47,876 nt of DNA from Candidatus Omnitrophota bacterium (lineage in GTDB: Bacteria > Omnitrophota > Gorgyraeia > Zapsychrales > Zapsychraceae), in the NCBI GenBank assembly GCA_015233405.1, contig JADFXT010000016.1, positions 1 to 47,876 on the forward strand, read 5' to 3'. Position 1 is the first letter of the stretch, and each line of letters starts with the position of its first letter. Position numbers and translations under genes: made by a program. Below the pieces are notes generated by a model, which was not told the DNA's origin, ran no database searches, and was given only the letters and a program-made list of their open reading frames with translations. Positions 30,622 to 47,876 of this stretch are shown here, piece after piece.

Positions 30622-31190
30622 ATTTGCACCACCTGTTTTCTTGTTTGGTTTATTGTTCCATTATTATCTATGATAAAATTCGCCAAGCGAATCTTTGCTT
30701 TTAAAGGCATCTGCGCCTTGATCCGATTTCCCGCCTGAACCTTGGAAATCTTCAGTTGTCTAACCGCCCGGGTTATTTGTTTTTGTCGATGGGCTTTGAC
30801 AACAACAGAAACATCGACTTCTTTATGTAAGCCGGATTCAAACAATAACGGCACGTCCAAAACCAAAATGCCTTGTTTGCCCCGGAGAGATTGAACCACT
30901 TTTCTGATTTCTTTTTTGACCGCCGGATGAATGATCTTCATAAGCTTGTTTAATTGCGCTCTGTCCTTAAAAACAATTCCCGATAATTTCTTGCGGTCGA
31001 TCATGCCGTCTTCATTCAAAATCTTTTGTCCAAACACTTTGACGATCGGACGATAACAAGACCCTTGCGGCGTCATTTCTTGATGAGCGATCTTATCCGC
31101 ATCGACGACAAATGCGCCAAGCTCAACAAACATTGCGGCAACCGTCGATTTTCCTGTTTTCAAACTCCCTGACAATCCGACAACAAACAT
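30579..31190 (-). CDS. coaE: dephospho-CoA kinase
   Basis: The product is 203 aa from the ATG at 31190, with GAGGA 7 nt upstream. It completes CoA synthesis by phosphorylating dephospho-CoA. The P-loop is [12 protein letters not shown], where the family usually has GGIGSGKS, so the GxxxxGK[ST] core is kept but the loop is atypical. [10 protein letters not shown] and the lid region ([26 protein letters not shown]) and [13 protein letters not shown] are family-like. It overlaps glgA upstream by 31 nt and rho downstream by 43 nt. Confidence 0.92.
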
Positions 31191-42191: not shown

Positions 42192-45100
42192 TTACCCCAC
42201 CTTATCCATTGGAGACAATTCCACCTTCTTCTCCAAATTTTCCTTGCCCGGCTCTGCCAGCCCCAGCAACGGGAAAATGCTTGGCAGCGGCACGATGTTG
42301 ATAATCACCGGCGAAAGATTATCGACGGGCACATCCTTAAATTGTTCCATCACCTTTGGATCGAACTGGAATGTGAATTTACCTTTCCCATCGCCTTTTA
42401 AATTAATATTGTTCATGTCAATACCACCAACCTCATCAGGTTTCTTAGTCACAAGCGCGTGGTCGACGGATGTTTGACTGTTGATAATTTCCAAATATTC
42501 CGATATCCTTTTGCCTGTCGGTTGAGATCCATATGGAACCTGAGTTCCACCAACCCAAGCAAGTACCTCTTCCATCTCGGGCGTCCCAGGATGATAAATA
42601 ACTTCAAAATCATGAGAAGGATAATGCCCGCTATCCCGAATCCTTTGTACATCAGAAATATTTTCAGAAGAAATCAAATAATGATATTGAGAATCTAATT
42701 TGCTCTCAATCAAGCTTCTTGCTTCATCTTCCGAGATCATCGCCTTGTCCGTCCCGATCAGAGACTCGGAGATTTTGTTTCCCTGCGCGATGGTGTAGCC
42801 GGTCACGGTGACTTTGCCCGTCGGGAAGATAGAATCTTCTAACCCGTCCATTTTGACGATATCGGCAAGTCCTTTTGCGATATCCTCAACAGAAACCAAA
42901 TCAAAATCATATCCTTCAATCCGCAAGCTGAGCGCAAACGGAAGAAGCTCGCTTGTCTCCGTCGACGTGTTGGCAAAAAGCCCGGCGGATTTCGACAATT
43001 TCTCAGAAACCTGCTGATACATTTTTGCAATGGAATCATCCACGGCCTTTAATGCTTCAACAGCTTCCTCTATAAGGCGAGCGTTCGAAGAACTTTTAAT
43101 AACATCGACCTCGGCCTTAATTCTTTCCTTCTTGGAAATATTTAAGGCGGCTAATTTTGCCCTCACAGCCTTTCGGGATTGCGGGGTCGACTCTAATCTC
43201 CTTAAGTGACTGAACAACGCTTCTTTAATCTGATCTTGTTTCACGAAACTTTTTGCTTTCAAATAACGGCGAGCCAAAACATTGACCGCCTGAGTTTGCA
43301 CGTCGACATTGATACTATTTAACCGCTTCATAAACCACGCACTCGAACCAGGGAACGTCATCATGGCCTGGTCCGCCGGAGCGCCTTGAGATTCAAAATT
43401 ATCCCATGCCTGAAGGTTTCTTAACTGATCAAACGCTTCTTTCATCGCCTCAGCATCGTTAGAATACTGAATGACTCTCGAATTGGCCATTCTCATCTCT
43501 GAGGAAGGAACATTTAACGCCGCAAGCGCGTCTCGCACGGCTTGACGGGATTGAACAGTAGAGCCGTCTTTCCCTATCAAATGGTCAAAGAATCCTTGTT
43601 TGATCTTTTCTTGGAGCCTAGGATTGTTTTTGTAAAAGAAACTCAAAAGTTTAATGGCGCTTAACTGCACCTTCGGATGCGCCGCATCCGTCAATTTATG
43701 ATTAATGTACCAATTTGTTATAGGTGAAATCGCCATCATCGCCTTGTCCAGCTTTGGCGCATTGTCAGGTAATTTCTCGCCTTTAACAACGTACCAGCTC
43801 CCTGGAACCTCAACTTTTTCAAAATGTCCCGGCATCCCTTGGACACGTTCATAATGAGCTGGATCATCAACCCATACTTGTGCGTCTTGACCAATATCAT
43901 ATCCAATGTGCCCTGAATCTGGGACATATTTATACTCCACAGGATCCTCAACCCATGTAGGCTGATCTGTACCAAGATCATGTTCAAGATGCCCTGTCGT
44001 CGCTTCGACCCACTCCCTGCTAGTCGTTGGCGCAGAATAACGAACCTCAAAATCGTATCCCGATCGATAAATTTCTAAAGCTTCCCTAAAGAGAGAATCA
44101 AAGTTAGAAGACACTCCTTTTTCTCTCAGCTTGGTGCGGATTTCATCTTCTACCGACATCGCCTTGGTCTCTGGCGCTGTCTTGTTTTCTTTTGTCGCAT
44201 CGACTCTTTTTGCTGTATTATTTCCTGTTGCTGCATTGCTTTCTTTTTCTAATGTATACGGAAGCTTATACCATTCTGCAATCCCGAGATCGATATAATA
44301 CTCGGTAAGATCCTTCTTATCTGTACTAAGAAGCCGTACTTCTTTGCCTTCAAAAAGCGTCTTTCCTGTCTCAATCATCTCTTCAAATTTCGCATCCTCC
44401 GCCGCAAGCCTATAGCCCGCCCATGCTGAATCAATATGTGCAGATTCATCTTGAAGAGATGCATTTGTCCCATCCACTAACGGATGCTCCTCCTCATACC
44501 GTTCAAAATAACTGTCTGCGCTAGTACTATCATATGGAATATAAATATATTTATGTACTATGTCCCACAAGACAGAACGTACAGAACTTTTCGCAAAATA
44601 AGCCTCTGCTTGTTCAGATGCCATCATCGCCTTGTCCGTCTTCGCGGCGTCGTAATATTTGAAAATATTACTTGTTTCCTCTGCCGCATTAGCGGGAGAG
44701 TCTGAGCCGTGAATACGATTGACCGTTAAGTTGGAGTCCTCGCCTTTAAAATGTTCACGGATCTGTTCTACAATGGCGCGAATTTCCTCGACGGCTTTCG
44801 GAGATTTGGTTTCAATGAATAAAGGAATAACCGGGCCACTTGTGACATAATCCAAAAGCGTCTCATAAAAATCTTTGCCCTTTTTACTGGAATAAAACTC
44901 GGCGGCCTGTTCTCTGGTTAAAGTAATTTGCGGTCCCATAGACACTTTAATATCTTCTCCATTTAGTTTCTTTTCGCTTAAATAACTCATGATAGCTTCC
45001 TGATAGGCCTTGACGGCATCAGGCTTAAGCATCGCATAGGTGTTATTACCTTTAAGGATCCCGTCTAAAAAGGCCGTGCGGAAATCTTTATTGTTAACAT

Positions 45101-47876
45101 CCGCGACCTTAACGACTAAACCGTTAGAATAAATCTTAAGTGAAATATTCTCAAGAACCGGGCGGCCATTTTCCGTCGGGAAAAGATGAGCCATTTCATT
45201 GTAACCGGTTAAATCAAAAAGCCCTTTGTCAAAAGCACTTTCAATTTTGACTTTGCCTCTAAAAATAGGATTTAATATTTTGACTTTCCCTAGAATCGTG
45301 AGCGATTTTAAATCTTTCATACCAATGCGCTTGCCGAAAGCATTAATATAATTCTGCTGTTCACTCCAGAACCCTTCCTTATCATCCAAAGTGATTTCCG
45401 GCGGAACCGCGTTAGGCTTAGAATCCCGCAACACCCATTGCTTGGCATCAAAAGTATAATAATCACTTTGCTGAAGCAGAATGTCATAATTCTTTTTGAC
45501 GGGCGTAAAAAATTCCGTACGTGGAATGCTGACAAAATACAAGAGTCGGTCTAAACGGTCTTTTCCTTTAAGCCCCAGCTCATCACTGACTTCTTCTAAA
45601 ATAGCTTTTGCCTTCGGCTCAGTCAAAAAGAACTGGTTTAAATTATGCATATTCGTTCCGATAGCCCCATCGATAGGAACATATTCCTCTTTATCTGTGT
45701 CAAAGCCCTTCTGAAGCTTCTTTTCGATATAAACTGAAGAGATAACTTCCTTCAACTTTTCTTCTCCAAAATCACGCACCAACTTAACAAAAATTTTGTG
45801 CAAAAGTGACGTGTTGATATAAAAGATATTCGTATTAAACGGCTGATTGCCTTCCTTTTGGCCGCCCTGAATGAAATCTTTCTCTTGATCGACGGCTTTA
45901 GCGTCGGCAACTTCCATCTGCGCAGGGACAGGGACTTGGACGATTTTACCGTCTATTACGACGTCCACCATACGGACTCCGTCCTTGCCGCCCTTATTAT
46001 CAATGGGCGTCGCCACTGTCGTAAGTTTAATGATAGGTAAATTCCTGCGGACCATGGCGCCGGCGATCACATCACTGACGCGGCTGTTGATATTATCCCC
46101 GTTATAAAAAACACGGATGTGTGTTTGCCCTTCAGGGATTTGAGCTGTGTAAGCATCCCATAAAAATAAATACCCCCAATAACCGTGCCCGCCGGGCTGA
46201 CGGTAACGGAACATCGGAGTATCGCTCTTTAAAGCCAAACTTTTTAAATCTTTATTGACCCACGGAAGGTCGGCTTGTTCCCGGTAAGGAAGAATCTCCA
46301 CTCCGGCGGCTTCAAACATTTGGCGATAAGTCCTTTTGACGATTCTGTCGGCATCAAGGCGGTCTAAGAGATATTCTTGATTAAACAACTTCTCATAAGA
46401 TTTTTTGGATTGCCAATTGACCAACGGCTGAAGCTCGACTCCAGCGAATATTTTCTCTTTTAAAATCTCAATCAATTGAAGGAATTTCGCCTCTGCGATA
46501 GAGACAAAAACTTTTCCTTTCTTCGACGGATTCTTAATGCCCAATGACGCGACAGAAATTTCATAACCCAAATCCGTTCCTTTTGCGCCGCGAACAACTG
46601 TTATCTCTTTGTCGGCATAGCGAATAACATATCCGGTTTTCTTATCCGTGGCAGGGTCTATATATTCCTCGACCGTGATTTTTTCTCCCTTGGCGTCTTC
46701 TTTAGCTTGGGCTAAAATCATTTCTTTTAAAAACTCAATACGATCTAAACTTTCTCCAATTCCGCCGTCCATGGAATTTAAGGTCATATAAGCCTTCTTC
46801 GCGGCTTCGGCATTTTGAGGATCCTTTACCAAATCCTCATAAGACTCTTCTCCAAGCCAATTCTTTCTCTGTGTTTCATCTAAATCTGTGGCAAGAATGA
46901 AATTCTGGTCAGCCGGATGGTCATTGACATGCTTTTTGTAATCTAAAATGATTTTTATCGGTTGATTGGATTTATTATCTGTGTTGCCATATCTACGGGC
47001 AAACGCTTGTTTCCACATCTGGCCCAAATAATCCAAATCCGTATCTTTCAAATCAGGATAAAGTTTCTTGGCCTGCGCAAACTGTTCCTTCATTTCCGCA
47101 TCGGTCAGCATGGCGTGGTCGACGGGCTTTTTATTATCCGTCACAAGCGCGGAGTCAGAATAGTCTTCGGGAAGCATCTCCCAAGATCCGCCCTCTATCG
47201 GCGTTCCTGCTGGAATAACTGACCCTATTGAATAATTTTGTTTCCAAATATACCCGTCAACAACTTCTCCATCATAATCACCATCTCTTGAAGGCGCGCT
47301 ACTCATCATCGCCTTATCCTTCTTTCCCGCGATGTTGACCGACATATTGAAATCCTGCCCGACGATGGAACGTGCGATTTCTTTGGCGCTGGCGGTTTTC
47401 ATGGCCAAGTCAGCATCTTTAAACCCACCGGAGAAATATTTCTTAGGCATAATTTGCTGGGTCTTAGGGTCATACTCTTCCTTCATATAGTTATAGACAC
47501 CCTTTTTATAGGCTTCCATGTACTGCGTATAAATTTCTTCTTTGGCTTTCGGATTATTTTCATCAATGCCTGCGACTTTATTTTTATTGATATACGACGA
47601 GGAAAGGATGCTATTGCGGACTTTCTCTTTATACCACTTAGCTAAGATGAGCGAATGATAGATCTGGCGAAGTGGAGCGAAATTCTTGCCGGTGTTCACT
47701 TCCTTCTCAATGGCGGGAAGGATTATTTCTTTGATGATAGAAGAAAGTTTGTCATTCCCGCGAAGGCGGGAATCCAGTAACCCGTTTTTAGACCCTGGAT
47801 CCCGGGTCTGCGCCCGGGATGACAAAGAAGAAAAAGCGGGATGACTAGAAGCAGCTTGACTGGAAGTAGATTGATT
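42192..47876 (-). CDS. giant modular protein with DxAM motifs, partial (5' end outside window)
   Basis: The frame is open to the window edge; at least 1894 residues are visible. Residues below are numbered from a TTG at 47825. Order: a repeat-encoded segment (1-25); a helical domain to about 165; a UDP-sugar pyrophosphorylase-like domain (about 380-880); a nucleoside diphosphate kinase domain (about 927-1058, with NRIHGSDS and His1039); GH-x-x-x-D-x-G-x-D-x-x-x-WV-x-DP-x-x-Y repeats (about 1278-1345); two homologous roughly 100-aa helical modules (about 1369-1480 and 1494-1600); and a C-terminal GGIDMNN domain (about 1800-1850). Motifs DKAMM, DSALV, DHAML, DKAMM, TKAMS, DKAMM, DQAMM, DKAMI and DHALV are at 170, 224, 236, 1064, 1220, 1360, 1485, 1693 and 1788. 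I associate this style with Omnitrophota giant proteins; the overall role is unknown. Confidence 0.92.
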   Translation of the reverse strand, partial: NQSTSSQAASSHPAFSSLSSRAQTRDPGSKNGLLDSRLRGNDKLSSIIKEIILPAIEKEVNTGKNFAPLRQIYHSLILAKWYKEKVRNSILSSSYINKNKVAGIDENNPKAKEEIYTQYMEAYKKGVYNYMKEEYDPKTQQIMPKKYFSGGFKDADLAMKTASAKEIARSIVGQDFNMSVNIAGKKDKAMMSSAPSRDGDYDGEVVDGYIWKQNYSIGSVIPAGTPIEGGSWEMLPEDYSDSALVTDNKKPVDHAMLTDAEMKEQFAQAKKLYPDLKDTDLDYLGQMWKQAFARRYGNTDNKSNQPIKIILDYKKHVNDHPADQNFILATDLDETQRKNWLGEESYEDLVKDPQNAEAAKKAYMTLNSMDGGIGESLDRIEFLKEMILAQAKEDAKGEKITVEEYIDPATDKKTGYVIRYADKEITVVRGAKGTDLGYEISVASLGIKNPSKKGKVFVSIAEAKFLQLIEILKEKIFAGVELQPLVNWQSKKSYEKLFNQEYLLDRLDADRIVKRTYRQMFEAAGVEILPYREQADLPWVNKDLKSLALKSDTPMFRYRQPGGHGYWGYLFLWDAYTAQIPEGQTHIRVFYNGDNINSRVSDVIAGAMVRRNLPIIKLTTVATPIDNKGGKDGVRMVDVVIDGKIVQVPVPAQMEVADAKAVDQEKDFIQGGQKEGNQPFNTNIFYINTSLLHKIFVKLVRDFGEEKLKEVISSVYIEKKLQKGFDTDKEEYVPIDGAIGTNMHNLNQFFLTEPKAKAILEEVSDELGLKGKDRLDRLLYFVSIPRTEFFTPVKKNYDILLQQSDYYTFDAKQWVLRDSKPNAVPPEITLDDKEGFWSEQQNYINAFGKRIGMKDLKSLTILGKVKILNPIFRGKVKIESAFDKGLFDLTGYNEMAHLFPTENGRPVLENISLKIYSNGLVVKVADVNNKDFRTAFLDGILKGNNTYAMLKPDAVKAYQEAIMSYLSEKKLNGEDIKVSMGPQITLTREQAAEFYSSKKGKDFYETLLDYVTSGPVIPLFIETKSPKAVEEIRAIVEQIREHFKGEDSNLTVNRIHGSDSPANAAEETSNIFKYYDAAKTDKAMMASEQAEAYFAKSSVRSVLWDIVHKYIYIPYDSTSADSYFERYEEEHPLVDGTNASLQDESAHIDSAWAGYRLAAEDAKFEEMIETGKTLFEGKEVRLLSTDKKDLTEYYIDLGIAEWYKLPYTLEKESNAATGNNTAKRVDATKENKTAPETKAMSVEDEIRTKLREKGVSSNFDSLFREALEIYRSGYDFEVRYSAPTTSREWVEATTGHLEHDLGTDQPTWVEDPVEYKYVPDSGHIGYDIGQDAQVWVDDPAHYERVQGMPGHFEKVEVPGSWYVVKGEKLPDNAPKLDKAMMAISPITNWYINHKLTDAAHPKVQLSAIKLLSFFYKNNPRLQEKIKQGFFDHLIGKDGSTVQSRQAVRDALAALNVPSSEMRMANSRVIQYSNDAEAMKEAFDQLRNLQAWDNFESQGAPADQAMMTFPGSSAWFMKRLNSINVDVQTQAVNVLARRYLKAKSFVKQDQIKEALFSHLRRLESTPQSRKAVRAKLAALNISKKERIKAEVDVIKSSSNARLIEEAVEALKAVDDSIAKMYQQVSEKLSKSAGLFANTSTETSELLPFALSLRIEGYDFDLVSVEDIAKGLADIVKMDGLEDSIFPTGKVTVTGYTIAQGNKISESLIGTDKAMISEDEARSLIESKLDSQYHYLISSENISDVQRIRDSGHYPSHDFEVIYHPGTPEMEEVLAWVGGTQVPYGSQPTGKRISEYLEIINSQTSVDHALVTKKPDEVGGIDMNNINLKGDGKGKFTFQFDPKVMEQFKDVPVDNLSPVIINIVPLPSIFPLLGLAEPGKENLEKKVELSPMDKVG
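42275..42464 (-). other. C-terminal DHALV-GGID domain of the giant protein
   Basis: This covers residues about 1788-1850: DHALVTKKPDEVGGIDMNN, then KFTFQFDPKVMEQFKD, then LSPVIINIVPLPSIFPLLGL. I recall C-terminal GGID-x-(L/M)-(N/S)..FDP-x-M-x-x-F..PVII-x-I-x-P domains with a preceding D-x-A-(M/L) motif ending other Omnitrophota proteins. It may be a sorting or attachment domain, by analogy only. Confidence 0.6.
44652..45047 (-). other. nucleoside diphosphate kinase domain inside the giant protein
   Basis: YAMLKPDAVKAYQEAIMSYL matches the N-terminal KPD-x-V strand and helix of NDPK; QITLTREQAAEFYSSKKGKDFYETLLDYVTSGPV matches the LT-x-x-x-A-x-x-x-Y..F..L..Y-x-x-SGPV block; and NRIHGSDSPANA carries the phosphorylated histidine (residue 1039) and the downstream serine and aspartate. 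The spacing between blocks is that of free NDPK, with a modest extra stretch before NRIHG. Confidence 0.85.
45186..46688 (-). other. UDP-sugar pyrophosphorylase-like domain inside the giant protein
   Basis: RYRQPGGHGYWGYLFL, HIRVFYNGDNINSRVSDVIAG, RRNLPIIKLTTVATP, FNTNIFYIN and RTEFFTPVKKNYDILLQQSDYYTFD follow the order of the UDPGP family (uridine-binding loop, NxD motif, F-N-T-N strand, P-V-K-x-x-x-D-L segment). The usual N-terminal L-x-GG-x-GT-x-x-G signature is only RGAKGTDLG here, so activity is doubtful. The likeness is from motif order, without a score. Confidence 0.65.
47751..47823. repeat. GTCATTCCCG repeat element translated within the giant ORF
   Basis: GTCATTCCCGCGAAGGCGGGAATCCAG at the left end and CCCGGGATGAC at the right, with the family's inner arms. 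It lies in phase within the open frame, giving the peptide SSRAQTRDPGSKN followed by GLLDSRLRGNDK. The frame is open on both sides of it. Confidence 0.85.

Follow-up and report, generated by a model that had tools for sequence, protein, structure and literature searches.

Nucleoside diphosphate kinases (NDKs) are usually oligomers. Their Kpn loop is located at the active site and at oligomer contacts, and viral enzymes in which it is shorter show higher affinity for pyrimidine and deoxynucleotides (PMC7554756). Eukaryotic-type UDP-glucose pyrophosphorylases (UGPs; PF01704) are recognized by a fixed order of catalytic motifs (GGxG, Lys, HG, NGD, NTN, and TPVK). The giant open reading frames (ORFs) of the Omnitrophota, including one of 39,678 aa in Ca. 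Velamenicoccus archaeovorus, are poorly conserved, have few annotated domains, and are of unclear function; roles in adhesion or predation have been suggested (PMC10066038; related literature, PMC12057145). Polymorphic toxin systems use a constant module for trafficking, exchangeable cargo, and a short motif at the boundary.

The window analyzed here is a stretch of 47,876 nucleotides that makes up a whole contig of a Candidatus Omnitrophota metagenome-assembled genome (MAG), which is 84% complete. A single frame at its end encodes a carrier protein with a UGP-like domain and an NDK domain (Table 1). The contig end truncates the gene at its 5' end. With the missing N terminus estimated from homologs, the 5.7 kb that are visible extend to about 6.3 kb and the chain to about 2,100 aa, which does not justify the term "giant chain" used in the first-pass annotation. 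The NDK domain has the fold and catalytic histidine of stand-alone NDKs (PF00334) and almost the whole set of their active-site residues, but it is embedded in a larger, exported-looking chain, has a short Kpn loop, and belongs to a clade of its own. The UGP-like domain has the same catalytic motifs in the same order as the eukaryotic-type enzymes and differs from them by GGxGE in place of GGxGT/S, AKG in place of PKS, and insertions around the loop. With the Omnitrophota giants, the protein has in common the phylum, a large multidomain build, and a UGP-like domain; however, the giant ORFs exceed 20 kb, and the window gene has N- and C-modules shared with other proteins as well as D-x-A-M boundaries. 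In the giants sampled from other classes, neither module was found. One UGP-like domain (L296; G160:C1:80500-88000) lies within a frame of 39,687 aa in a 1.97-Mb genome that consists of a single contig. This frame is presumably the giant protein of Ca. V. archaeovorus.

Constant modules and boundary motif of the proposed carrier family

Aligning the frames that bear UGP or NDK domains exposed two constant modules. The N-module is a hydrophobic N terminus ending in AxA-Q, followed by about 290 residues up to RKYFSGG, with 45 to 68% identity; in the window protein, the signal peptide and the first half of this module lie beyond the contig end. It is present in 80 of 92 relatives, often in at least 20 copies each. 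The C-module comprises about 70 residues (GGIDLN...PVIINITPI), has 36 matches in the window's genome, and stands at the end of 58 of the 64 complete N-module ORFs on Omnitrophota contigs. The family is like a polymorphic toxin system in its constant module, swappable cargo, and boundary motif, but its recognized cargo consists of metabolic enzymes rather than toxins and its C terminus is constant rather than variable. Profile searches of the window's genome recovered about 36 paralogs; the distinct frames of 500 aa or more number 36, total 73,152 aa, and occupy 9.2% of the bases; the complete proteins range from 715 to 4,007 aa. This exported-looking, cysteine-free chassis had been missed in the first-pass annotation, although its domain calls were sound. 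A model of the N-module (pTM 0.71) had no match in the PDB (Foldseek best E value, 0.36; VIA best Z, 3.1), which does not by itself establish a new fold, and the N-module profile found nothing significant among PDB sequences. A palindromic REP-like repeat (cgggaatccag / ctggatcccggg) lies in frame within the N-terminal part of the carrier gene (window positions 47740 to 47830; aa ~16 to 45).

Within the cargo of 87 complete proteins, D-x-A-M was the most overrepresented of the patterns scanned (244 occurrences versus 15 expected), while it was depleted in 450 control ORFs (7 observed versus 19 expected). In 48 of the 87 proteins, a copy of the motif follows the N-module by no more than 60 aa, and in 41, one precedes the C-module by no more than 60 aa. 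One carrier paralog of 4,007 aa (L250:1487-13507, plus strand) consists of nine tandem units of about 290 aa that are ~44 to 62% identical, and each unit starts at D-x-A-M. This placement indicates that the motif marks unit boundaries, where it may serve as a linker or a processing site. The possibility that D-x-A-M is a property of the cargo itself was ruled out, since the motif is nearly absent from UGP and NDK proteins of other classes as well as depleted in the control ORFs.

Table 1. Features of the carrier gene in the window
Feature	Position	Strand	Details
Carrier protein gene	42192..47876	(-)	Single open frame, 1894 aa visible
N-module, C-terminal part (AKWYK...PKKYFSGGF)	47424..47762	(-)	aa 39-151; 176-bit N-module profile match
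D-x-A-M boundary motif DKAMM, after N-module	47304..47318	(-)	aa 187; another at aa 156
D-x-A-M motif DHAML, upstream of UGP-NDK cassette	47106..47120	(-)	aa 253
UGP-like domain	45102..46799	(-)	aa ~360-925; PF01704 match at 45279-46307
UGP G-loop MDGGIGES (GGxGT variant)	46749..46772	(-)	GGIGE in place of GGxGT/S
UGP lysine motif GAKGTDL (K432)	46569..46589	(-)	Matched by eye to the PK lysine of UGPs
UGP PGGHG motif (H564)	46173..46196	(-)	Aligned to GHG of solved UGPs
UGP NGD motif (D594)	46083..46106	(-)	Asp invariant, 20 copies
UGP FTPVK motif (K794)	45483..45509	(-)	Aligned to FAPVK of solved UGP
NDK domain	44658..45044	(-)	aa 945-1073; PF00334
NDK catalytic NRIHGSDSP (N1053, H1056, S1058)	44694..44720	(-)	aa 1053-1061
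D-x-A-M motif DKAMM, closes UGP-NDK cassette	44622..44636	(-)	aa 1081
Further cargo	42735..44621	(-)	D-x-A-M at aa 1377, 1502, 1710; Pfam matches all below cut-off
C-module (GGIDMN...PVIINIVPL...LLGL)	42231..42428	(-)	aa 1817-1882; 55-63-bit C-module profile match

NDK and UGP-like domains of the window protein

The first-pass annotation had proposed an embedded NDK with its active-site histidine context preserved, and both calls were upheld. The domain matched PF00334 with 69.2 bits (4e-19) to 73.9 bits against a gathering score of 27. In an AlphaFold model of aa 330 to 1089 (window positions 44610 to 46889), the NDK part reached a pLDDT of ~78 to 90, and VIA-align placed it in the ferredoxin-like NDK fold. 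It matched solved NDKs with a Foldseek E value of 5e-6 and a VIA-align Z of 13.6 (rmsd, 2.0 to 2.1 over 122 to 125 residues), and the Mimivirus NDK was among the closest structures. In the active site, K951, Y995, R1040, N1053, H1056, S1058, and E1067 correspond to K12, Y52, R105, N115, H118, S120, and E129, respectively, and R88 is also kept. The Kpn loop is about 10 residues short, as the spacing between R88 and R105 (human NDPK-A numbering) is 7 rather than 17. Since functional viral NDPKs with short loops are known (PMC7554756), the loop marks a variant, and we file the domain as a divergent rather than a canonical NDK.

Ten embedded NDKs from large Omnitrophota frames were compared with stand-alone Omnitrophota NDKs, and the two sets formed separate clades with branch support of 100/100. 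K12, Y52, F60, R88, R105, N115, and S120 are conserved in all 10 embedded copies and H118 is conserved in 9, with a change to Q in L290, while identity to the window NDK is only ~30 to 47%. Two further embedded NDKs (G022:C166 and G013:C351) lack the catalytic histidine or its context and look decayed. A profile search found no second NDK in the window's genome, the MAG being 84% complete. A stand-alone NDK is present in the relatives G001, G022, and G072.

The UDPGP-like domain of the first-pass annotation was likewise confirmed by a PF01704 match at aa 524 to 866 (42.1 bits; 6e-11; Pfam gathering score, 22). In addition, a profile built from seven UGP copies of the host order matched solved UDP-glucose pyrophosphorylases at 2.5e-17. 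The extent given to the domain needed correction, as its real start lies upstream of the boundary drawn earlier and includes the G-loop. That annotation had also doubted the domain on account of its degenerate GGxGT signature. Across the Omnitrophota family, this loop reads GGxG[E/S/T/A/Q], with GGIGE in the window copy. Among 20 Omnitrophota copies, the histidine of HG and the aspartate of NGD are found in all 20 and NTN is found in 19, and the lysines of GAK/AAK (18/18) and TPxK (19/19) are present in every copy that covers the site. The range of loop sequences found with the remaining motifs intact suggests that the GGxGT change is a lineage variant rather than decay. The doubt is thus not supported, and a decayed UGP domain is rejected on the conservation of the motifs across the 20 copies. 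The UGP part of the AlphaFold model had a pLDDT of only ~20 to 75 and was not usable because the alignment contained just four rows. Among the UGP relatives, the nearest (G008; 53% identity) is divided between two overlapping frames (1,758 and 902 aa; L085:3378-11319, minus strand); a frameshift is likely here, since the second frame bears the C-module.

Cargo of sister proteins and evidence on cellular location

Enzymes of consecutive steps are paired in other paralogs as well. One paralog carries NadD and NadE, which score 153 and 577.9 bits against NCBIfam equivalog cut-offs of 112 and 479, and another (G000:C45) carries CoaD and CoaE, which score 123 and 97 bits against cut-offs of 103 and 66. 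A further paralog in the window's genome joins a UGP domain to a phosphoglucomutase (PGM) domain, and others match galactokinase and, at 1.3e-90, GalE (18 members scanned together). In relatives, the cargo of the chassis includes PGK, enolase, TIM, FBP aldolase/phosphatase, and RmlD; one chain contains both PGK and enolase, with their motifs intact and D-x-A-M between them. Many cargo regions have no match to any known enzyme. Stand-alone CoaD and CoaE are both encoded in the window's genome beside the carried copies, and a stand-alone NDK or NadE is found in many relatives. This coexistence indicates that the carried enzymes are mostly extra copies. No other full NadE was seen in the window's genome, at 84% completeness of the MAG. 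The stand-alone CoaE is located in the window itself (30648 to 31184, minus strand; 172.9 bits), and the second CoaE is the one joined to CoaD in G000:C45.

A hydrophobic N terminus ending in AxA-Q/E was found in 76 of the 87 complete family proteins. Cysteine makes up 0.12% of residues in the family in the window's genome and 0.13% in relatives; the remaining genes of the window have 1.10% and the control ORFs 1.07%. The window carrier protein contains no cysteine, and the carried NadE has 1 compared with 7 in the stand-alone NadE of G001. The signal-peptide-like N termini and the cysteine depletion are two independent features that point outside the cytoplasm, and they suggest that the proteins are exported by way of a Sec-type signal peptide.

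Proposed function and alternative explanations

The best-supported reading, to which we give an even chance, is that these proteins are exported carriers of functional duplicate enzymes. Each chain would consist of a Sec-type signal peptide with the ~290-residue N-module, then enzyme cassettes separated by D-x-A-M, and then the ~70-residue C-module. In the window protein, NDK would rephosphorylate UDP to UTP using another NTP and UGP would combine UTP with a sugar 1-phosphate to give a UDP-sugar, so that the two could jointly regenerate the donor for glycosyl transfer. Judged by its sequence, the cassette fits such a UDP-sugar regeneration module. The first-pass annotation had left a choice between a nucleotide-sugar module and retired folds used as binding surfaces; the former is favored, since divergent copies within the Omnitrophota retain the catalytic residues of UGP and NDK alike, and it gains support from the consecutive-step pairs in the sister paralogs. 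The exported-looking, cysteine-free chassis makes a simple cytoplasmic UDP-glucose module unlikely. Taken together, the family would duplicate central, cofactor, and sugar-nucleotide metabolism beyond the bacterial cytoplasm; the likeliest site is a host or prey cell, either inside it or on its surface, where the substrates are available. In its widest form, which we consider rather unlikely, this proposal describes a near-cysteine-free second central metabolism (glycolysis and the synthesis of UDP-sugars, NAD, and CoA) that is exported on dozens of modular carriers, each with constant modules for export and attachment flanking its D-x-A-M-bounded cassettes, and that runs or remodels metabolism inside another cell. 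Against the carrier proposal, the signal peptide of the window copy falls outside the contig, an exported protein would need NTPs and sugar phosphates outside the cell, and the mostly missing Kpn loop, the shuffling of cassettes, the decayed-looking embedded NDKs, and the unmatched cargo also count against it.

The adjacency of UGP and NDK could instead be an accidental mix of cargo in which each domain acts, or does not act, alone. The direct succession of the two domains reported in the first-pass annotation is real, but the search of relatives that it called for showed the combination to be rare: of 384 genomes in the phylum, just two (G000, the window's own, and G116) encode them in a shared frame, with the order reversed in G116. 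This distribution indicates that cassettes shuffle, and a conserved fusion is ruled out. Moreover, NDK is the sole recognized enzyme domain above the cut-off in G001. On the other hand, the window has D-x-A-M on both sides of the pair and none between its members, consecutive steps are paired in other paralogs, and in G072 the NDK is accompanied on its chain by domains resembling uridine kinase and CMP kinase and by glycosyltransferase domains. We therefore regard an accidental mix as possible but probably wrong. The chain in G072 is a 9,774-aa frame (L082; G072:C12) that carries fn3 domains beside its uridine-kinase-like, cytidylate-kinase-like, NDK, and glycosyltransferase domains and looks like a single-protein route from uridine to UTP. 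Surface-located enolase, PGK, and TIM of other bacteria are known as moonlighting binding proteins, and the family might similarly be surface adhesins or a coat that uses the folds of metabolic enzymes for binding. The chassis is exported-looking and cysteine-poor, the catalytic histidine or its context is lost in some embedded NDKs, including L290, and most of the Kpn loop is absent, all of which would suit this explanation; giant Omnitrophota ORFs have also been proposed as coat proteins or adhesins (PMC10066038). We nevertheless consider it unlikely, as active-site residues are kept across divergent copies, NadE, NadD, CoaD, and CoaE all score above their equivalog cut-offs, and pairs of consecutive-step enzymes would be superfluous for binding.

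If the hydrophobic N terminus were an uncleaved anchor, the proteins could be metabolons tethered to the cytoplasmic side of the membrane. There, ATP and UTP would be at hand for the intact nucleotide-dependent active sites, and in the MAG, which is only 84% complete, neither a second NDK nor a second full NadE was seen. However, the AxA-Q/E ending of 76 of 87 N termini and the 9-fold depletion of cysteine fit extracytoplasmic life, and relatives have stand-alone cytoplasmic copies of the same enzymes, which makes tethered metabolons quite improbable. An artefact of assembly or profile searching might be suspected in a MAG contig that is open at its end, but the frame is uninterrupted, the same modules recur in independent MAGs, and the same domains occur in other Omnitrophota classes, including in a single-contig genome; we consider the chance of an artefact negligible.

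To our knowledge, no secreted protein family is known to have housekeeping-metabolism cargo with intact catalytic sites. The published literature that was covered describes neither the two modules nor D-x-A-M nor a metabolic cargo of this kind, and an earlier description may exist. If the carriers act outside the cell, the host-dependent life that has been proposed for Omnitrophota would gain a testable mechanism, and the N-module, the C-module, and D-x-A-M are handles by which carriers can be found, named, and tested across the lineage. In the host order and the sampled class relatives, PF01704 matches occur only in frames of at least 767 aa. Three short UGP-like ORFs of 605 to 614 aa with intact motifs (L283, L284, and L285) come from one Omnitrophota family (f41) and are possibly stand-alone relatives of the UGP cargo.
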